From Embleya hyalina (GTDB taxonomy: Bacteria > Actinomycetota > Actinomycetes > Streptomycetales > Streptomycetaceae): a stretch of DNA of 52,593 nucleotides. The notes under the pieces were generated by a model. The model saw only the letters and a program-made list of their open reading frames with translations, made no database searches and was not told the origin of the DNA. The translations under genes and the position numbers were made by a program. Positions 43,178-52,593 of this stretch are shown here, piece after piece. How positions within the stretch are numbered: the first letter of the stretch is position 1; each line of letters starts with the position of its first letter. The DNA lies in contig NZ_BIFH01000021.1 of NCBI RefSeq assembly GCF_003967355.1, forward strand, positions 38,864 through 91,456. The letters run 5' to 3'.

Positions 43178-44050
43178 TCAGCCGCCGGCGCGGGTGCGGA
43201 TCAGCTCGGCGAGGTGGTGCAGGGCGGCGGGGTTGTCGGCGAGGAACAGGTTGGGCTCGACGAGTTCGAGTTCCATCAGCACCGGCGAGCCGTCGTCGGC
43301 CAGGGCCACGTCGACGCGGGCGTAGAGCAGCGGACATGCGCCCGGGACGACGGACAACGCCGCGGCGGCCAGGTCGAGTTCGGCGGTGGTCGGGGTGTGC
43401 CGGGCCAGGCCGGGATGCGGGTGGCGGTCGTTGTCGAGGACGCCGACCTCGGTCAGGACCGGTCCCTTGCGCATCGCGTGGCTGAACATGCCGCCGAGGA
43501 AGACCAGCGCCCGTTCGCCCTCGTCGATCCGGGACAGGTACGGCTGCACCATCGCGGTCTCGCCGCCGGCGTGCAGCGCGGCGATGTGGCGGGCGGCCGC
43601 GTCGTGGTGCTCCGGGGCGTAGCGGGCGCTGTCCCGGGCGCCGGAGGAGACGGCGGGCTTGATCACGAAGTGGCCGCGTTCGGGCAGGGTGGCCCGCTCG
43701 CCGGGGGCGACGAATCGGGTCGGCACCACCGGGACGCCGCGCGCGCAGAGTTCGCGCAGATACCGCTTGTCGGTGTCCCAGCGCACCGGCGCGGCCGGGT
43801 TGTCCAGCCGGGTCACCGCCTCGACCGCGTCCACCCAGGCCAGGTACGACGCCGGCCGCTCGCAGTAGCCCCACGTGGACCGGATCACCACGGCGTCGTA
43901 GGTCGACCAGTCCACGTCGGCGCGATCCCAGGACACCGCCTCGGCGTCGACGCCCCGCGAGCGCAGGGCGGCGACCAGCGGTGGCAGGTCCGCGTCCAGC
44001 CGGAGACCCAGGGCCGAGGTGGCCGCCGCCACGCGGATCGGGACCGACAT
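43178..44050 (-). CDS. ATP-grasp ligase-like protein (glutathione synthetase/DcsG fold)
   Basis: A 290-residue ATP-grasp protein. The N-terminal domain ends in 'VIRSTWGYCERPASYLAWVDAVE' and 'RWDTDKRYLRELCARGVPVVPT'; the grasp has 'GHFVIKPAVSSGARDSARY', and the magnesium-binding end is 'VLMELELVEPNLFL'. This family is common in Streptomyces and includes DcsG of cycloserine biosynthesis. ATG 44050 has GGAGGTACCG. Divergent from the arsM gene. Reaction unknown; forms an amide or ester from an acyl phosphate. Confidence 0.85.
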   Translation of the reverse strand: MSVPIRVAAATSALGLRLDADLPPLVAALRSRGVDAEAVSWDRADVDWSTYDAVVIRSTWGYCERPASYLAWVDAVEAVTRLDNPAAPVRWDTDKRYLRELCARGVPVVPTRFVAPGERATLPERGHFVIKPAVSSGARDSARYAPEHHDAAARHIAALHAGGETAMVQPYLSRIDEGERALVFLGGMFSHAMRKGPVLTEVGVLDNDRHPHPGLARHTPTTAELDLAAAALSVVPGACPLLYARVDVALADDGSPVLMELELVEPNLFLADNPAALHHLAELIRTRAGG

Positions 44051-44234
44051 CGGTACCTCCGGGGGAAGCGGAACGGCCGTGAACGGGTCGGGAAGGCCGA
44101 GTCGGCGGATCACCCGGGCCCGCCCGCGAGCGGGCCGCGTTTCGCGGTGGCCCGGGTTCGCGGACGTGGCTTGTTCGCGTGGGTCGACGGGTGTTGATGA
44201 CCTCCGGGCGAACGATAGCCGTCCATTGGCCGAC

Positions 44235-44253
44235 ATGGTGCGATTGCACCCAT
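44235..44253. promoter_or_regulatory. Imperfect palindrome before arsM (candidate operator)
   Basis: ATGGTGCGATTGCACCCAT is an imperfect inverted repeat (GGTGC-GATT-GCACC core) in the 274-bp divergent region between the ATP-grasp gene and arsM. Position and symmetry fit a regulator site, but no ArsR gene is nearby to bind it. Confidence 0.35.
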
Positions 44254-44324
44254 CGGATACCCCCAGACTGCCACCGCCGGCCGGTCGGGGTCGGGGGCCG
44301 GGACCGTGGATGAGCGAGGAAACC

Positions 44325-45107
44325 GTGGCAGACGAAACCATGGACGATGTGCGTGCCGGGGTGGACGCGACCTATGTGGCGGCGGCGAGCGCCGTGCTGG
44401 CCGGGGGCAGTGTGACCAGCGAATCCTGCTGTGACGGCAGTGGGGTCGGGGTCGGTCGGGGGTTCGGGGCCGGGCGGTATCGCGCGGAGGAACTGGGGTG
44501 GCTGCCCGGGGCGGCGTCGGCCGCGAGCCTGGGGTGTGGCAATCCGGCCGCCGCGGCCGATCTGGTCGAGGGCGAACGGGTGCTCGACCTCGGCTCGGGC
44601 GGCGGCATCGACGTCCTGCTTTCGGCCCGACTGGTGGGGCCCAAGGGGCGGGTGTACGGGCTCGACCTGCTGGACGAGATGCTGGAGTTGGCCGGGGCGA
44701 ACGCGCGGCGCGCCGGGGTGGACAACGTCGAGTTCCTGAAGGGTTCGATCGAGGCGGTGCCGTTGCCGTCCGCGACGGTCGACGTGGTGATCTCGAACTG
44801 TGTGATCAGTCTGGCGGCGGACAAGGGCGCGGTGTTCGCCGAGACGTTCCGGGTGCTGCGCCCCGGCGGCCGGTTCACGGTGTGTGACGTGGTGGCCGGT
44901 GAGGGGCTGACGATCGAGGAGCAGGCCGCGCGCGGGTCGTTCGCCGGATGTCTGGCCGGGGCGTTGGCGGCGAGCGAGTATCGGGCCGGGCTCCGGGCGG
45001 CCGGGTTCATCCGGATCACCGTCGAGCCCTCGCACCAGATCACCGACGGGATGCGGGCGGCGATCATTCGGGCCGACAAGCCGAAGGCGTGCTCCTGCGA
45101 CTGGTGA
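44325..45107 (+). CDS. arsM: Arsenite S-adenosylmethionine methyltransferase
   Basis: A 260-residue ArsM. SAM motif 'VLDLGSGGGIDVLLSAR'. The three arsenic-binding cysteines are in place: Cys71 ('SLGCGNP'), Cys159 ('VISNCVISL') and Cys209 ('SFAGCLAGA'), the last two 50 residues apart as in known ArsM. There is an additional 'SCCDG' pair (Cys35-Cys36) and a 'CSC' end. The start is GTG 44325 with GAGGA; ATG 44310 is an alternative. No arsR, arsB or arsC is in the window. It methylates As(III) to volatile or less retained species. Confidence 0.9.
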   Translation: MADETMDDVRAGVDATYVAAASAVLAGGSVTSESCCDGSGVGVGRGFGAGRYRAEELGWLPGAASAASLGCGNPAAAADLVEGERVLDLGSGGGIDVLLSARLVGPKGRVYGLDLLDEMLELAGANARRAGVDNVEFLKGSIEAVPLPSATVDVVISNCVISLAADKGAVFAETFRVLRPGGRFTVCDVVAGEGLTIEEQAARGSFAGCLAGALAASEYRAGLRAAGFIRITVEPSHQITDGMRAAIIRADKPKACSCDW

Positions 45108-46289: not shown

Positions 46290-46739
46290 CCGGCGACTCC
46301 TTTTCGTGGCTCGGCAATCGGTTCGGGGCAGTCGCGATCCGGCGGACCGGAGCACGTCGCTCCCCTTCGGCGGGCGGGGGCATCCCACCCGCGCCGAGTC
46401 CATGATCGCCCGTTCCGCGCGTGACATGCACCAAAACACGTTTCCGCGTGCGGAATTGCCCGAAGAAAGCTTGGATCGGCCGCTCTGCGTGCGGTGTTGC
46501 GGACGGGTTGTGACATGGGAAACGGGGTTCGGGGGTCCCGGAGCGCTGTCGAGGCCCGGATTCGGCAGTGCCGATGTGGTGTCGGGCCCGGTTTCGGGGT
46601 GGTTTCGGCCGGGCCGATGCGCTCCCCGGCGACGCCGGCTCTCGTCGATGTTGTATTGAAAATGAAAACCATTCCCGATACGGTCGCGGCGGATCGATGC
46701 TCTGCGAGAGAGCCGTCGCGCGGTCGGAGAGGGAGTTCG
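46290..46739. promoter_or_regulatory. Divergent upstream region of the H1-like and ligase genes
   Basis: A 450-bp gene-free stretch. It holds an unusually AT-rich island at 46650-46680 that contains the Zur-box-like element described separately. The leftward promoter of the H1-like gene must also be here, but I see no confident match. The frame open upstream of 46740 shows no family similarity. Confidence 0.6.
46656..46673. promoter_or_regulatory. Candidate Zur (zinc uptake regulator) box
   Basis: TTGAAAATGAAAACCATT matches 14 of 18 positions of an actinobacterial Zur-type box written TTGAAAATGATTTTCATT; the left half is perfect and the right half keeps CATT. It lies 66 bp upstream of the ligase start, in an AT-rich island standing out from GC-rich surroundings. 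The comparison consensus is from memory, and the right arm is degenerate, so this is a candidate only. Confidence 0.5.
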
Positions 46740-48029
46740 GTGGGTCATCTGTTGGTTGTCGAAAGCTGGGTCGGGGCGATGAGCGGATTGTTGCCCCGGG
46801 CCATCCACGAGGCCGGACACGAGTTCACGTTCCTCACCCGGGACCTGCACCACTACCTGCGCGCGACGCCCGGCGCCGCGCCGCATCCGCTGCTGTCCGC
46901 GCGCAACATCGTCACGACGGAGACCAACGACACGACGGAACTGCCGGCCGCGGTCGAACGACTGCACGAGGTGTTCGCGTTCGACGGGGTGTTGTCCGCG
47001 TGCGACTACTACCTGCCGGCCACCGCGCGGATCGCCGCCCGGCTCGGTCTGCCCGCCCCCGCGCCGGACGCGGTGGAGGCGGCCTGCCGCAAGGATCTGA
47101 CCCGACTGCGCCTGGCCGAGGCCGGCGTCCCCGGCCCGCGCTTCGCGCTGTGCGCGGACCGGGCGCAGGCGCGTGCCGCGGCGCGTGAGATCGGCTACCC
47201 CGTCGTGGTCAAGCCGGTGGACCTGTGCGCCGGGATGTTGGTCCGCGTCGTCCACGACGAGGTGGAACTGGCTCGCGCACAGCGGGCCATCACGGATCTC
47301 ACGGTGAACGCGCGCGGACAGCGCCGGGCCTCGGTGGTGCTGATCGAGGAATACCTCACCGGCCCCGAGGTCAGTGTCGAGACGGTCACCCGCGCGGGAC
47401 ACACCCACGTCGTCGGCGTGACCGACAAGAGCCTGGGCGCCGAGCCGACGTTCGTCGAGACCGGACACATGTTCCCGGCCGCCCTGGACCCGGACCGCAC
47501 GCGGGCCGCCGCGGACACCGCCGTACGCGCGGTCGAGGCGCTGGGCCTGGACCACGTCGTGGCGCACACCGAGATTCGACTCACCCCCGACGGGCCGCGA
47601 ACGATCGAGGTCAACCCCAGGCCGGCGGGCAATCGCATCACCGAACTGGTTCGGCACGTCACCGGCGTCGACCTGGTCGTGGCCTGCGTGGACGTCGCGC
47701 TGGGCCGGCGTCCCGACCTGGCCGTGCGCGAGACCGGCGTCCGCAGTGCGGCCATCGGCCTGCTGCTGCCCGACGAACGCGACCTGTCGGCGGACGGGAC
47801 GGGCACACTCGCCGGCATCGACGGCGCCGACGCGGTACGCGCCGAGCCGGGCGTGGTCGAGCTGACCCTGGCCGAACCGGGGCGGTCGGTACGGGCCGCG
47901 ACCAGCAACAACGAGTATCTGGGCCACGTGCTGACCGCCTCCCGGGGCGCCGGCGCGCGGGAGTCGGCCGAGCGCATGCTGGGCCGGCTGCGCCCCCGCT
48001 ACGCGGCCGTGTCGGCGGTGACCGGGTGA
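46740..48029 (+). CDS. ATP-grasp enzyme, L-amino acid ligase (BacD/LAL) type
   Basis: A 429-residue carboxylate-amine ligase. The opening 'HLLVVESWVGAMSGLLPRAI' is a Rossmann-like pre-grasp domain; the grasp contains 'YPVVVKPVDLCAGMLVRVV', 'EEYLTGPEVSVETVT' and the Mg-binding 'HTEIRLTPDGPRTIEVNPRPAGNRI'. 'TDKSLGAEPTFVETGHMFPA' resembles the block around the substrate site of L-amino acid alpha-ligases such as BacD. GTG 46740 follows GGAGAGGGAG. First gene of a five-plus-gene coupled operon. It probably joins two amino acids through an acyl phosphate. Confidence 0.85.
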   Translation: MGHLLVVESWVGAMSGLLPRAIHEAGHEFTFLTRDLHHYLRATPGAAPHPLLSARNIVTTETNDTTELPAAVERLHEVFAFDGVLSACDYYLPATARIAARLGLPAPAPDAVEAACRKDLTRLRLAEAGVPGPRFALCADRAQARAAAREIGYPVVVKPVDLCAGMLVRVVHDEVELARAQRAITDLTVNARGQRRASVVLIEEYLTGPEVSVETVTRAGHTHVVGVTDKSLGAEPTFVETGHMFPAALDPDRTRAAADTAVRAVEALGLDHVVAHTEIRLTPDGPRTIEVNPRPAGNRITELVRHVTGVDLVVACVDVALGRRPDLAVRETGVRSAAIGLLLPDERDLSADGTGTLAGIDGADAVRAEPGVVELTLAEPGRSVRAATSNNEYLGHVLTASRGAGARESAERMLGRLRPRYAAVSAVTG

Positions 48030-48940
48030 GCCGGCCGCGATTCGCACCCGAGGCCCCGGGCGCCCTCGACGAACTGCTCGTCCGGGTCCGCGCCGGGGAG
48101 TTCGGGGCCGACCCGAACCAGGAGCGGGTGAGCACCGCCTTCCGCACCGTGCAGGCCGTCCGGCACGCGGAACGCACCACCGGCTACCGCAACGAGGTGC
48201 TGAGCGTGCGGCTGGGCGCGGCGGTCGGCTCGTGCGCCGCCGAACCGGGCACGCTGCCCGCCGAGACCATCGACGACTGCGTCGGGGCCCGCGTCGCCGA
48301 CCTGCTGGCGCATCCGCTCGCGCCGGTCCGGATCGCCGCCCTGGACGCCTACCTGATGCGAGCCCGCCCGCACGGCCCCGAGCACGGTGCCAGGGCGTAC
48401 CCGTTGCCGGCGGGGAGTTCGCTGACCAAGTCCCGCGCCCGGGCCCGCGCCGTGATCGACCTGCTGCCGGCGGCGCGGATACGCACCGTGCTGGTCGTGG
48501 GCGTGGTCAACTCGCTGTTGGAGCGGCTGCACACGCTCGGGATCGGCTGCGTGCCGTGCGACTTCGCGGGTGGGCGCACCGAATGGGGCGAGCCGATCCG
48601 CCGCGACGCCGAGGCCGAACTGGACCGCTGCGACGCGATTCTGGCCTCCGGCATGACGCTGGGCAACGACACCTTCGAACCGCTGCGCGCACACGCCGCG
48701 AGCACCGGCAAGCCGCTGGTGATGTTCGCCCAGACCGGCAGCGCGATCCTGCCGCACTTCGTCGGCTCGGGGGTGAGCGCGGTATGCGCCGAGCCCTATC
48801 CGTTCTTCTGGCTGGACGGCGGACCCGGTGTGGTCCATCGCTACGGCGGGCCGAGTGCCGCGCACCGACCCGCAGACCCGGGCGCGGCGCGCCGATCCGA
48901 AGGCACGAGCGCGGCGCGCCGATCCGGAGGTGCCGCGTGA
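48026..48940 (+). CDS. DUF4213/DUF364 putative heavy-metal-chelation protein
   Basis: A 304-residue protein with an N-terminal DUF4213-like half ('ERTTGYRNEVLSVRLGAAVGS') and a C-terminal Rossmann-like DUF364 half ('RTVLVVGVVNSLLERLHTLG' and 'DAILASGMTLGNDTFEPL'). PF04016/DUF364 is annotated as putative heavy-metal chelation. GTG 48026 overlaps the ligase stop (GTGA), and its own stop overlaps the next gene, so all three are coupled. The last 25 residues are low-complexity ('SAARRSGG'). Biochemical role unproven. Confidence 0.75.
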   Translation: MSRPRFAPEAPGALDELLVRVRAGEFGADPNQERVSTAFRTVQAVRHAERTTGYRNEVLSVRLGAAVGSCAAEPGTLPAETIDDCVGARVADLLAHPLAPVRIAALDAYLMRARPHGPEHGARAYPLPAGSSLTKSRARARAVIDLLPAARIRTVLVVGVVNSLLERLHTLGIGCVPCDFAGGRTEWGEPIRRDAEAELDRCDAILASGMTLGNDTFEPLRAHAASTGKPLVMFAQTGSAILPHFVGSGVSAVCAEPYPFFWLDGGPGVVHRYGGPSAAHRPADPGAARRSEGTSAARRSGGAA

Positions 48941-50112
48941 GCACCGTCCCGCCGCCGCGTGCCGCCGACTCGACCGGTGCCAATCCCGACCTGCTGTCCC
49001 TGCTCGGCCGCACCCCCGTGGTCCGTGTCGGCACCGAACTGCCCTGCGCGCACCCGGGATTCTGGGCCAAGCTCGAATACCTGAGCGCGGGCGGCATGAA
49101 GGCCCGGGCCGCCGTATCGATGTTGCGCGGCGCCCGCCGACGCGGCGAACTGCGCCCCGGCGCGCTCGTGGTCGAGTCCACCTCGGGCACCCTGGGCATC
49201 GGTCTGGCCTTCGCCGGACAGGCCCTCGGTCATCCGGTCCGGCTCGTCGGCGACCGCGAACTCGAACCGTCCATGCGGCAGTTGTTGCGCGCGCACGGCG
49301 CCGAACTGGACCTGGTGGAACAGCCGGCGGCGGTCGGCGGCTGGCAGGCCGCCCGGCTCGCCCGGCTGCGCGAGATCCTGCGCGGCACCCCCGGCGCCTA
49401 TTGGCCGGATCAGTACAACAACCCCGACAACCCGGCGGGCTACGCGTCGATGGCGGCCGAACTCGCCGACCAGCTCGACCACGTGGACATCCTGGTGTGC
49501 AGCGTGGGAACCGGCGGGCACAGCGCCGGACTGATCGGGCCGCTGCGCCGGCGCTGGCCGGCGCTGACCGTGATCGGCGTCGACTCGGTCGGCTCGACCA
49601 TCTTCGGCCAGCCCGCCCGACCCCGCCTGATGCGCGGGCTCGGCAGCAGCATCCGGCCGCGCAACGTCGCCCACCACGCGTTCGACGAGGTGCACTGGGT
49701 CGGCCCGGCCGCCGCCGTCGACGCATGCCGTCGGCTGGCCCGGGGCAGCTTCGTCAGCGGCGGCTGGAGCACCGGCGCGGTGGCCCTGGTCGCCGCGTGG
49801 GCGGCCCGTGTCCACCCGGGCACCACCGTGGCCACCATCTTCCCGGACGGCCCGCACCGGTACCTGGGCACCGTCTACGACGACGCCTTCTGCGCCGCGC
49901 ACGGCCTGGCCGGCGCCCGCGTGCCCACCCACCCGGTGGAGATCCTGGACCCCGGGATCGTCGAGGTCGGCGGCTGGGCGCGCTGCCGGACGGCCGCGCG
50001 CCCGCCGGGCGTCCCGGGGCCTTCGGCGCGGGAACACGCGCCCGCGTGCGCCGCTGCGCCCGTGCCCCGCGTCGCCGGCGCGCCCGAGACCTCCATACCG
50101 GGGTCCGCATGA
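48937..50112 (+). CDS. PLP-dependent cysteine-synthase-like enzyme (SbnA group)
   Basis: A 391-residue fold-type II PLP enzyme. The Schiff-base lysine is Lys55 in 'LSAGGMKARAAV'; the phosphate/substrate loop is 'VESTSGTLGIGLAFAGQALG'; the PLP-phosphate turn is 'CSVGTGGHSAGLIGP'. It differs from true CysK in both loops (usual 'S-G-N-T-G'). Relatives make beta-substituted alanines such as 2,3-diaminopropionate precursors (SbnA). GTGA overlap with the upstream gene. The C-terminal ~55 residues are Pro/Ala-rich and probably disordered. Confidence 0.83.
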   Translation: MSTVPPPRAADSTGANPDLLSLLGRTPVVRVGTELPCAHPGFWAKLEYLSAGGMKARAAVSMLRGARRRGELRPGALVVESTSGTLGIGLAFAGQALGHPVRLVGDRELEPSMRQLLRAHGAELDLVEQPAAVGGWQAARLARLREILRGTPGAYWPDQYNNPDNPAGYASMAAELADQLDHVDILVCSVGTGGHSAGLIGPLRRRWPALTVIGVDSVGSTIFGQPARPRLMRGLGSSIRPRNVAHHAFDEVHWVGPAAAVDACRRLARGSFVSGGWSTGAVALVAAWAARVHPGTTVATIFPDGPHRYLGTVYDDAFCAAHGLAGARVPTHPVEILDPGIVEVGGWARCRTAARPPGVPGPSAREHAPACAAAPVPRVAGAPETSIPGSA

Positions 50113-51161
50113 GGCTCACGTGGCAGACGACCCGGCTCGAACTGGGTGAGCCGTTGCGCATTTCGCGGTCGGTGATGGCCGGGCGCGATGCCGTCTGGGT
50201 GTGTGTCGAGCACGAAGGGACGCGCGGGTGGGGTGAGGCGCTGGGCAGCGCTCGGCTGGGGCTGGCGGCCGATGACATCGGGGCGGCGCTGGCGCGGGCG
50301 GCTCGGCCGTGGCTGGGGCGGTTCGGCGAACCGGAGAGCGCTTCGGAGGAGTTGGCGGGCATCGGACCGAGCGGGCTGCCGCTCGGGGTGCGGGCCGCGC
50401 TCGACGCGGCGCTGCTCGACCTGGTGGGCAAACGCGCCGGACGGCCCGTACATCGGCTGCTGGGCGCCGAACGGGCGCCCGCCGCGGTGACCGCCCGGAC
50501 CATCGGGCTCGGCGGGATCGAGCACGCGGCCGATGCGGCGACGCGGCTGGCCGCACTCGGGTTCACCGTGCTCAAGGTGAAGGCCGGTGCGCCCGATCCG
50601 GCGCACGATCTGGCCAGGGTCGCGGCGGTGCGCGACGCGGCGCCGGACGCCCGGATGTTGCTCGATCCCAACGGCGCGTGGAGCGAGGCGCGGACCATGG
50701 AACTGCTGCCGCGATTCGCCCTGCTCGGGGTCGAGGCGGTGGAGCAGCCGATCGCCGCCGGGCGACCCGATGTGCTGGCTCGGATCGCTCGGCACGCGCC
50801 GATTCCGGTGATCGCCGACGAGGACGCGGTCACCCGCGAGGACGTACTGCGACTGGCGGGACGGATTCCCGGGGTCAACCTCAAACTCGCCGAATGTGGC
50901 GGTGCGCGTGCGGCGTCGCGGATCGTCGAGGATCTGCGCGGCAGCGGTACCGAGATCATGTTCGGCTGCCTGACCGGCAGTTCGCTCGGCATCGCGCCCG
51001 CCGTACACCTCGTCGACCGGGCCCGCTGGGTCGACCTGGACGGGCATCTGCTGCTCGCGCGCGATCCGTGGACCGGCATCGGCGGTACCGCCGGCACGGT
51101 GCGCGCCGCCGAACACACCCCCGGGCTGGGCGTACGGCGCACGATCGGGGCCGGCCGATGA
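50109..51161 (+). CDS. Dipeptide-epimerase-type enolase-superfamily enzyme
   Basis: A 350-residue muconate-lactonizing subgroup enzyme. Catalytic Lys are Lys158 in 'VLKVKAG' and Lys259 in 'NLKLAECGG'; Mg ligands are Asp186 ('LLDPNGAW'), Glu212 ('AVEQPI') and Asp237 ('IADEDAV'). This is the set found in L-Ala-D/L-Glu and other dipeptide epimerases. ATG 50109 overlaps the upstream stop. With a putative amino acid ligase in the same operon it probably epimerises one residue of the dipeptide product; o-succinylbenzoate synthase activity is the main alternative. Confidence 0.86.
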   Translation: MRLTWQTTRLELGEPLRISRSVMAGRDAVWVCVEHEGTRGWGEALGSARLGLAADDIGAALARAARPWLGRFGEPESASEELAGIGPSGLPLGVRAALDAALLDLVGKRAGRPVHRLLGAERAPAAVTARTIGLGGIEHAADAATRLAALGFTVLKVKAGAPDPAHDLARVAAVRDAAPDARMLLDPNGAWSEARTMELLPRFALLGVEAVEQPIAAGRPDVLARIARHAPIPVIADEDAVTREDVLRLAGRIPGVNLKLAECGGARAASRIVEDLRGSGTEIMFGCLTGSSLGIAPAVHLVDRARWVDLDGHLLLARDPWTGIGGTAGTVRAAEHTPGLGVRRTIGAGR

Positions 51162-52465
51162 GGACACTCCGCGCGGTGGCCGGATTCCCGCTCGCGGTGC
51201 GGCTGTTGCTGGTCAACCAGCTCGGCGTGAACACCGGCTTCTACCTGCTGATCCCGTATCTGGCCACCCATCTCACCGACGACCTGGGAATGTCCGCCGC
51301 CGTCGTCGGCATCGTCCTGGGCGTGCGCAACCTCGCGCAGCAGGGCCTGTTCATCCTCGGCGGATCCGCCGCCGACCGGCTCGGCGCGCGCGGCGTGATC
51401 ATTGCCGGATGCGCGCTGCGCACCGTGGGGTTCGGGCTGTTCGCGCTGGGCGACGGACTGCCGGTACTGCTCGCCGCCGCGCTGCTCAGCGGGCTGGCCG
51501 GCGCGCTGTTCAACCCCGCGGTGCGCACCTACCTCGCCCACGAGGCGGGGCCGCGCAGGGCCGAGGCGTTCGCCCTGTTCAACGTCTTCGCCACCACCGG
51601 TGCCCTGCTCGGTCCGCTGCTCGGCAGCCTGCTGCTCCTGGTCGACTTCACCGCCGCCGCGCTGACCGCGGCCGTGCTGTTCGCGGTGCTGACGATCGCC
51701 CAGGCGCTCGTCCTGCCGGCGCGTCCGGTGCCGGCGCCGGAGCGTTCGGTGGTGGCCGACTGGCGTGAAGTCCTGGGCAACCGCGCCTTCGTGGCGTTCT
51801 CGATCGCGATGGCCGGGCTGTACGGCCTGGAGACGCAGCTGTATCTGCTGCTCCCGGACGGCGTTCGGCACGCGACCGGCCAGGAGGCCGCCGTCGGAGT
51901 GCTGTTCCTCACCGGGACGGTCGCCAACCTGCTGCTGCAACTGCGGATCACCCGCCTCCTCCAGGCACGCGGCGACCGCACGCGGTGGATCACGATCGGA
52001 ACGGCCGTGACGGGACTGGCCTTTCTGCCCCCGATCGTGGTCGCCGGCGGCGCGGGCCCGGACGGGACCGGGGACGCGGTGGTGCGGATGGTGCCGTTGA
52101 TCGCCGCCGCCCTGTTGCTGCATGTGGGCGTGATGATCGCGCAGCCGTTCGTGCTCGAACTCGTCCCCGCCTTCGGCCCGGACCGATTGACCGGCACCTG
52201 CTTCGGGCTGTTCTACGCGGCCTCCGGCATCGCGGCGGCGGTCGGCAACGCCGGGATCGGCTGGGCGATGGACGCGGGCGCGGGCAGCGGCCGGGCGTGG
52301 TTGCCGTGGGCCTGCTGTGCGCTCCTCGGCCTGCTGTCGGCCTCGGCGATGGGGTGGCTGCGCCGGGGCGGGACGCTGCCCACCGTGCCCGGCGCCGGCG
52401 CCGTCGAGCCGGCCGCGGCGTCGCGTACGCCCGACCACCCCAGAGCCGAGAGCGAGCCCCGATGA
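51158..52465 (+). CDS. MFS transporter, probable product exporter
   Basis: A 435-residue major facilitator protein with about 12 membrane segments. The loop 2-3 motif is 'GGSAADRLGARGVI', and 'GALLGPLLGSLLLL' looks like the export-associated helix 5 motif. The C-terminal 35 residues are hydrophilic. ATG 51158 overlaps the epimerase stop and its own stop overlaps the next start. Position at the end of a biosynthetic operon suggests efflux of the product. Confidence 0.88.
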   Translation: MRTLRAVAGFPLAVRLLLVNQLGVNTGFYLLIPYLATHLTDDLGMSAAVVGIVLGVRNLAQQGLFILGGSAADRLGARGVIIAGCALRTVGFGLFALGDGLPVLLAAALLSGLAGALFNPAVRTYLAHEAGPRRAEAFALFNVFATTGALLGPLLGSLLLLVDFTAAALTAAVLFAVLTIAQALVLPARPVPAPERSVVADWREVLGNRAFVAFSIAMAGLYGLETQLYLLLPDGVRHATGQEAAVGVLFLTGTVANLLLQLRITRLLQARGDRTRWITIGTAVTGLAFLPPIVVAGGAGPDGTGDAVVRMVPLIAAALLLHVGVMIAQPFVLELVPAFGPDRLTGTCFGLFYAASGIAAAVGNAGIGWAMDAGAGSGRAWLPWACCALLGLLSASAMGWLRRGGTLPTVPGAGAVEPAAASRTPDHPRAESEPR

Positions 52466-52593
52466 GCACCCGTGCCGCCGCGCGACCGAGAAGCGCCCCG
52501 ATGGGCACCGATGACGGCCGCGCGGCCGAGCACCTGCCCGGAAGAGCACCCGTGCCGCCGCGCGGTCGAGAAGTGGCCGCGATGGGCGCTGTG
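52462..52593 (+). CDS. Start of an unidentified gene, cut by the window edge
   Basis: ATG 52462 overlaps the MFS stop (ATGA) and the frame stays open for 44 codons to the window end. The visible N-terminus ('[20 protein letters not shown]') is low-complexity Arg/Ala/Pro and matches no family. A true start farther right is also possible. The coupling to the MFS gene is the only support that it belongs to the operon. Confidence 0.4.
   Translation, partial: MSTRAAARPRSAPMGTDDGRAAEHLPGRAPVPPRGREVAAMGAV
52464..52587 (+). repeat. Direct repeat, two copies with 80-bp period
   Basis: A ~44-bp sequence beginning GAGCACCCGTGCCGCCGCGC at 52464 recurs at 52544 with a few changes. The 80-bp period is not a multiple of three, so the copies fall in different reading frames. 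Confidence 0.7.

Follow-up and report, generated by a model that had tools for sequence, protein, structure and literature searches.

We analysed a window of 52,593 nucleotides (the whole stretch, C21:38864-91456) from the 12.05-Mb genome of Embleya hyalina, which belongs to the same family as, and to another genus than, the matching genomes that we sampled in its order. The right end of the window appears to hold the biosynthesis-and-export half of a Zur-repressed zinc-metallophore operon that works without a non-ribosomal peptide synthetase (NRPS), a reading to which we give a probability of roughly 0.78 from the sequence data. The complete operon has ten genes and very probably serves to make, export and re-import a small zinc-scavenging molecule, which we infer to be a beta-aminoalanyl, amide-linked and epimerised chelator. 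The basis of this reading is the gene order, the protein families, the operator, the linkage of the ten genes and the existence of natural versions of the operon that keep the core alone or the importer alone.

Five open and intact genes occupy positions 46740-52465 of the window, and neighbouring genes share 4 nt (GTGA or ATGA) at every junction, as is directly visible in the sequence and its translations. The initial annotation of this DNA had described five overlapping genes and named their families; the family calls hold in profile searches, but the transporter gene that it took as the end of a five-gene operon is not the last one. The window ends at an assembly gap of 646 N, which is flanked on either side by 40-bp tandem repeats (window 52462-52593; L009 7320-7437 and 8110-8252, where L009 is a stretch of the same genome reaching past the window). 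These repeats, located between the genes of the major facilitator superfamily (MFS) transporter and a methyltransferase, are probably a collapsed repeat array inside the operon. Five further operon genes lie beyond the N gap, such that the operon has ten genes in all and the window holds the front half. Genes in the loci were called with a simple GC-frame script rather than a trained gene finder, and the start codons of the genes outside the window were chosen by eye. The features are the following.

46657-46681, + strand: Zur-type operator TGAAAATGAAAACCATTCCCGATAC, matrix score 36.6, 58 nt 5' of the first start codon
46740-48029, + strand: ATP-grasp amino-acid ligase of the L-amino acid ligase type (ATP-grasp_4 and LAL_C2)
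48026-48940, + strand: DUF364 protein with an enolase-N-like plus Rossmann-like fold (Pfam DUF364 and 3l5o fold match)
48937-50112, + strand: SbnA/cysteine-synthase-like, pyridoxal phosphate (PLP) dependent enzyme of the beta-replacement kind (PALP, SbnA model, SbnA structures)
50109-51161, + strand: enolase-superfamily epimerase of the dipeptide-epimerase/DgcA type (profiles, structures, invariant residues)
51158-52465, + strand: MFS transporter, probable exporter (MFS_1, 2.6e-33), located 3' of the epimerase gene in all 15 homologous loci picked by hand
52462-52593, + strand: start of the 40-bp tandem repeat array entering the assembly gap (sequence repeats)
L009 8287-9078, outside the window: S-adenosylmethionine (SAM) methyltransferase
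L009 9128-10726, outside the window: solute-binding protein (SBP) of family 5
L009 10723-11676 and 11673-12533, outside the window: two permeases
L009 12520-14178, outside the window: fused double ATPase of an ATP-binding cassette (ABC) system

The operator was scored with a matrix built solely from the operons of other genomes, using the distinct sequences among 48 sites (92 sites in all) that were picked with a seed consensus, the window being left out. With this matrix the window operator reached 36.6 bits, against a background maximum of 22.2 and a 99th percentile of -2.9 in 3316 windows, and on these figures a chance site was rejected; the Zur-box-like element of the initial annotation is thus real. 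Sites conforming to CAATGAAAAYGATTRTCGATA, or variants agreeing with at least 15 of the 20 seed positions, occur in 92 of the 93 upstream regions compared, among them that of the window; in one variant both arms are changed together (GGAAAT..ATTTCC). By eye, the window operator overlaps a promoter-like pair, TTGAAA-N17-TACGGT. Compared, also by eye, with the 21-bp actinobacterial Zur palindrome quoted in PMC5472717, the common site fits 13 of the 15 specified positions and the window site 12.

We then asked which other genes the matrix finds. The control was a set of 20 genes for the ribosomal protein L28 from ten genomes, ten of the one-cysteine kind (from eight genomes) and ten of the four-cysteine kind. 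Nine of the ten one-cysteine loci carry a site (11.5-31.9), and none of the four-cysteine loci does (all at or below -4.7). According to PMC6103462, the rpmB2 class of L28 is under Zur control in S. coelicolor, and by an equation of our own the one-cysteine genes correspond to this class. The genome of the window has L28 of the four-cysteine kind only. Among 19 loci matched by the ZnuA family, 13 scored 6.6-18.9, one 3.7 and five were negative. In the window's own genome, sites were found at three zinc-transporter places (15.8, 17.6 and 22.9), and what is presumably zur, a gene of the Fur family, lies about 1.8 kb beyond one of the znuA matches; eight other binding-protein loci of this genome scored 1.9 or less. 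Genes for S18, COG0523, L31, S14 and L28 lie about 2.3-8 kb 3' of the operon in genome G119, and a similar ribosomal/COG0523 set lies about 3-8 kb upstream of it in G071, with Zur-like sites among these genes. Six loci holding the top background peaks were read: three (L074, L091 and L101) have an extra Zur-like site less than 1 kb from the operator of the operon, and the peak of L125 is directly 5' of a one-cysteine-type L28 gene.

By the matrix and the L28 control, therefore, the promoter region of the operon holds an operator of the kind expected of the actinomycete Zur regulon, and since the matrix picks out most full znuA loci besides the L28 genes with one cysteine, Zur is very probably the regulator. 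The zinc control proposed in the initial annotation is supported to this extent. Iron control was considered and rejected, as the operator matches zinc-starvation genes; we also take it to be unlike the DmdR/DtxR iron box.

The first enzyme of the operon has, above the cut-offs, both the Pfam ATP-grasp_4 domain (PF13535, 1.6e-21) and the C-terminal domain of L-amino acid ligases, LAL_C2 (PF18603, 1.1e-14), the combination that defines an L-amino acid ligase, and its nearest solved structure is the L-amino acid ligase BL00235 (9.4e-28). The second protein scores just above the cut-off of DUF364 (PF04016; 24.7 bits, cut-off 23). This weak call is supported by a confident AlphaFold model made from 19 homologues (pLDDT, the predicted local distance difference test, 89.5), whose best match in the PDB is the DUF364 structure 3l5o (E 3.1e-7; template-modelling score, TM, 0.51/0.61), such that the protein has both a profile score over the gathering threshold and the two-domain fold of the family. 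In 19 aligned sequences C70, E73, R46, Y54, N56, D107, H116 and N162 are invariant.

The PLP enzyme matches PALP (1e-52), its best NCBIfam model is SbnA (TIGR03945) and its best PDB matches are SbnA structures (2.4e-42). Lys55, which we take to be the active-site lysine, is invariant in 17 aligned sequences; the STSG and GTGG loops are kept in 12 operon sequences and differ in five sequences from sibling loci described below. In the structure-search alignment, a glycine occupies the loop where SbnA has Ser185, presumably as in O-acetylserine enzymes. In staphyloferrin B biosynthesis SbnA, the closest characterised relative of this enzyme, has a partner SbnB that the operon lacks, and the operon protein reaches 246.9 bits against the 349.95-bit cut-off of the SbnA model.

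The fourth protein belongs to the enolase superfamily (C-domain, 1.9e-32). Its nearest solved structure is 3iji (2.4e-36), an entry named muconate cycloisomerase, followed by epimerase-type entries, and its DLDG segment aligns with 3iji and 4gfi. In an alignment of 12 homologues K156, K158, D186, E212, D237, K259, D309 and D311 are invariant; we take this set to be the KxK pair, the three acidic metal ligands, the second-face lysine and the DxD near the barrel end, that is, the motifs of dipeptide epimerases. With these residues the protein shows the residue pattern of the dipeptide epimerase subgroup. The best NCBIfam scores were 219.8 for the DgcA racemase (cut-off 400) and 130.9 for the L-Ala-D/L-Glu epimerase (cut-off 343). 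An o-succinylbenzoate synthase (OSBS), which the initial annotation had named as a finding that would refute its proposal, was rejected, the best OSBS model giving 50.4 bits against a cut-off of 200.65; the invariant catalytic and DxD residues and the higher scores of the DgcA and epimerase models favour an epimerase.

Downstream of the gap, the importer genes match SBP_bac_5, BPD_transp_1 (twice) and ABC_tran in Pfam and constitute an Opp/Nik-type ABC system, and hence the cluster carries its own importer. The structural relatives of the binding protein include peptide, agrocinopine and nickel binding proteins. It had been suggested that an SbnB-like dehydrogenase and zinc importer genes be sought to the right of the window: none of the ten operon genes encodes an SbnB-like dehydrogenase, and what is present is the Opp/Nik-type importer, plus the methyltransferase. 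The latter is dispensable, being absent in locus L082 and not found in genome G203. The ten operon proteins were also scanned for NRPS, and no such gene was found among them, in agreement with the earlier claim.

Gene order is identical for all ten genes in each of 15 genomes hand-picked from the 66 with a DUF364 match of 60% identity or more (the ATPase gene of G173, G178 and G118 was read on a further stretch). A larger named set consisted of the best 80 of at least 466 confirmed relatives, namely 79 Streptomyces and one Kitasatospora; G020, G173 and G226 are common to both sets. All ten genes were found in 71 of these 80 loci, or in 69 of the 73 with enough flank, seven loci being too short for the ten-gene count. 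The four exceptions are L077, with methyltransferase, binding protein and both permeases missing; L082, with the methyltransferase alone missing; L088, in which the four-gene core alone was found; and L129, with an N gap in the importer region. Junctions overlapping by 4 or 1 nt are the rule between the DUF364 and PLP genes (91 of 95 loci) and between the PLP and epimerase genes (91 of 93 loci). As to neighbours, a divergent GNAT gene, not counted as part of the operon, stands beside it in 25 of the 80 named loci, and in five (L074, L084, L087, L101 and L114) a COG0523 (CobW-type) gene, whole or in part, is found no more than about 10 kb away, those of L074 and L101 with a Zur-like site of their own.

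Genome-wide co-occurrence was followed for three of the ten families, the others being compared as neighbours within loci. In 293 genomes of the order, DUF364 was matched in 118 and at 60% identity or more in 66; the ligase orthologue (E up to 1e-100) was found in exactly these 66. Of the 65 genomes with the binding protein (E up to 1e-150), 64 belong to this set. The co-occurrence that the initial annotation had proposed to look for was thus found for these families. Across the phylum, seven of 396 sampled genomes match the DUF364 profile: six Streptomycetaceae, among them the genome of the window, and one genome with a distant partial match.

Natural deletions divide the operon in two. G111 and G138 keep the ligase, DUF364, PLP enzyme and epimerase alone, as open genes behind the operator, and L088 (S. 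omiyaensis) resembles them. G203 keeps, also behind the operator, the MFS, binding protein, permeases and ATPase alone, and genome searches found no DUF364 or ligase orthologue in it. The four-gene core and the transport module thus appear to be separable parts of the operon, as would be the case for genotypes that only produce, or only import, a secreted chelator. Pairwise identities of seven genes in 86 loci (L042-L056, L073-L152; a few gene fragments included) fall into two blocks, one of ligase, DUF364 and PLP enzyme (correlation 0.83-0.87) and the other of epimerase, methyltransferase and binding protein (0.87-0.90), with 0.56-0.68 between the blocks and the MFS gene intermediate (0.68-0.81). 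The epimerase belongs to the core by gene content, yet its divergence tracks the second, transport-side block.

From the families and the genomic pattern we propose the following course of events, in which the steps after the regulator are the conjectural ones. When zinc is scarce, Zur would leave the operator that overlaps the promoter. The SbnA-like enzyme would then attach the nitrogen of an amino acid to the beta-carbon of a serine derivative (O-phosphoserine or O-acetylserine), yielding an N-(2-amino-2-carboxyethyl)amino acid; as no SbnB-like dehydrogenase follows, this aminocarboxylate would be kept as the chelating unit. The ATP-grasp ligase may couple this unit with another amino acid, the enolase-type enzyme may invert the alpha-carbon adjoining the new amide, and DUF364 could perform some further condensation or tailoring step, the methyltransferase being an optional tailoring enzyme. 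The MFS protein would export the product and the Opp/Nik-type ABC system would take the zinc complex back. As two genomes have retained the four core genes alone, open and preceded by the operator, these four are probably enough to make a product. Of the initial interpretation, the Zur-type control, a metallophore as opposed to generic metabolism, the independence from NRPS and the epimerase are supported, whereas the dipeptide nature of the product, the amino acids joined and the order of the steps are conjectural.

Several observations weigh against this interpretation. With 18 of the 20 seed positions, the window operator is among the more divergent sites, L139 is the one upstream region of 93 that lacks a site, the one-cysteine L28 locus L182 has none either (-4.4), and of the 19 ZnuA-family loci six do not exceed 3.7, three of these being short partial matches. 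The SbnA-like, epimerase and ligase proteins all fall under the cut-offs of their closest curated NCBIfam models, and any assignment of substrates is therefore tentative. We know of no reaction assigned to DUF364, and importers of the Opp/Nik type also carry peptides and nickel. The core-only and importer-only genomes could be decaying remnants, and the importer-only G203 is a draft of about 860 contigs. Moreover, as the importer-only genome keeps the MFS gene, it is not certain that this protein exports a self-made product; in G111, another MFS gene lies some 1 kb beyond the core.

Other readings of the same ten genes were considered. It is improbable that the operon makes an exported dipeptide antimetabolite under zinc limitation, in the style of bacilysin or dapdiamide, although an ATP-grasp ligase, an SbnA-like enzyme and an exporter are also the plan of dapdiamide-type pathways. 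The family matches to BacD and DdaF are far under the cut-off, and no resistance or target-duplicate gene was recognised among the ten operon genes. The initial annotation had left this option beside the metallophore; it is disfavoured by the importer, whose binding protein is co-conserved in 64 of the 66 genomes, and by the one genome that keeps importer and MFS protein without the core.

No better placed is a variant of the aminopolycarboxylate clusters for [S,S]-ethylenediaminedisuccinic acid (EDDS) or ethylenediaminesuccinic acid hydroxyarginine (EDHA), even if an SbnA-like first step would plausibly fit both. These are NRPS-free actinomycete systems. EDDS is zinc- and Zur-controlled in Amycolatopsis (PMC6103462, PMC9252823), and EDHA is reported in S. 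scabies, S. avermitilis and others (PMC10702961). The latter source describes EDHA as the product of a four-gene, iron-responsive operon, aesA-D, with a wider host range that includes Corynebacterium, Nocardia and Burkholderia; the comparison with the present operon was made by gene number and taxonomic spread, and both differ. The gene set of the operon is another one, and the DUF364 profile has the narrow distribution given above. An EDHA locus was sought in S. scabiei and none was identified. DUF364, L-amino-acid ligases and dipeptide epimerases are not known from EDDS or EDHA clusters.

A little less probable again is a chelator system for nickel or cobalt, an idea that arises from the Opp/Nik family of the importer and from its binding protein, which is of SBP family 5 and matches nickel-binding proteins among others. 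The operator speaks for zinc instead, given that it matches sites at one-cysteine L28, COG0523 and znuA genes, the hallmarks of zinc starvation, and that ribosomal genes of the zinc-starvation type adjoin the operon in G119 and G071. Least credible of all is an operon for the salvage of murein peptides or dipeptides, in which importer, L-Ala-D/L-Glu-type epimerase and ligase would recycle cell-wall peptides: an Opp-type importer with a dipeptide-epimerase-like enzyme is typical of peptide salvage, and DgcA and epimerase models are the best matches here, but the SbnA-like PLP enzyme, DUF364 and the exporter have no known role in salvage, the core-only genomes lack the importer of the operon, and the operator is of the zinc type.

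The zinc-metallophore reading, in turn, has precedents among known systems. Zincophore clusters usually combine an exporter with an Opp- or FecCD-type ABC importer, the exporter being an MFS protein in S. aureus and P. mucilaginosus, and the Cnt clusters for opine-like zincophores (staphylopine, bacillopaline, pseudopaline and yersinopine) likewise encode both together with a small, NRPS-free zinc chelator, according to PMC7438024. The operon has the same set (MFS_1, SBP_bac_5, two BPD_transp_1 and ABC_tran). In contrast, no Pfam family of histidine racemase, nicotianamine-synthase-like protein (CntL) or opine dehydrogenase (CntM) was found in the ten operon proteins, which use ATP-grasp, DUF364, SbnA-like and enolase-type enzymes instead. 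Coelibactin (S. coelicolor SCO7676-92) is also a Zur-controlled zincophore of a streptomycete (PMC5472717), but it is a non-ribosomal peptide (PMC3430247). By analogy, then, the logic of the operon, with a small NRPS-free chelator, an exporter, an Opp-type importer and a zinc repressor, appears to be that of the opine-like zincophores, and its regulation that of EDDS and coelibactin. In the full-text literature, a coverage outside which most subscription papers and supplementary files fall, we recognised no paper describing the operon, and the product chemistry is possibly new.

Of the 118 genomes with a DUF364 match, 52 have a weaker one, and this group was represented by five sibling loci, L057-L061. 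Their DUF364 proteins are 35-41% identical to that of the operon and stand near a PLP enzyme that is 28-32% identical, with MFS genes, and four of the five have an Opp- or FecCD-type importer. One or more Zur-like sites occur in every locus, with top scores of 19.1-30.2; the top site of L057 is by a COG0523 gene, and the one close to its PLP gene reaches 8.5. Genes for a GHMP kinase, a PhyH dioxygenase or a CobW/COG0523 protein are present in some of the loci, and L059 has a gene that looks like a methyltransferase by eye, with no Pfam match. No ligase or dipeptide epimerase of the operon's kind was seen in the five loci; the enolase-superfamily gene of L061, 30% identical and on the opposite strand, looks by eye like a sugar-acid dehydratase. 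From these loci it therefore seems that the DUF364-plus-PLP pair recurs in zinc-type clusters with different finishing enzymes.

Additional loci were noted in passing. Beside the operon of G020 lies a second metallophore-like cluster (L201 2-10793) with a gene of the OCD/SbnB family and, by eye, decarboxylase-like, SbnA-like, MATE-like and Opp/Nik-type ABC genes. S. scabiei 87.22 has a stand-alone two-gene unit (L243 5589-8041), whose PLP enzyme and MFS protein are 54% and 45% identical to those of the operon; the 16 kb searched gave no DUF364 or ligase match and no Zur-like site. Zur-like sites were also seen, by eye, directly 5' of another Opp/NikA-type binding protein near an ispF-like gene (L068, about 1500, in G118) and between FecCD/FepC-type transporter genes and a thiazole/oxazole peptide maturation-like protein (L063, about 1501, in G226). 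Upstream of the operon, the window contains an ArsM-like methyltransferase (44019-45107, + strand) and a second, unrelated ATP-grasp protein (43178-44341, - strand), both assigned by eye. Downstream of it, a CASCAM-type metal P-type ATPase (L009 16132-18516, - strand) and a CsoR-like regulator (L010 205-486, - strand), again by eye, apparently form a copper island.

We see about an even chance that the operon defines a new zincophore class, a beta-aminoalanine-derived, ligase-made and enzymatically epimerised small peptide that four enzymes would build, giving DUF364 its first assignable metabolic role, and that would be shared among producer-and-user, producer-only and importer-only streptomycetes. 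Of the 293 sampled genomes of the order, 66 contain the ligase and DUF364 genes, and yet no description in the literature was recognised. If the product is a true zincophore, streptomycetes would have a common, NRPS-free route of zinc scavenging that would escape searches keyed on NRPS or opine dehydrogenase genes, and the importer-only and core-only genomes would be ready material for the study of public-goods sharing of a zinc chelator.

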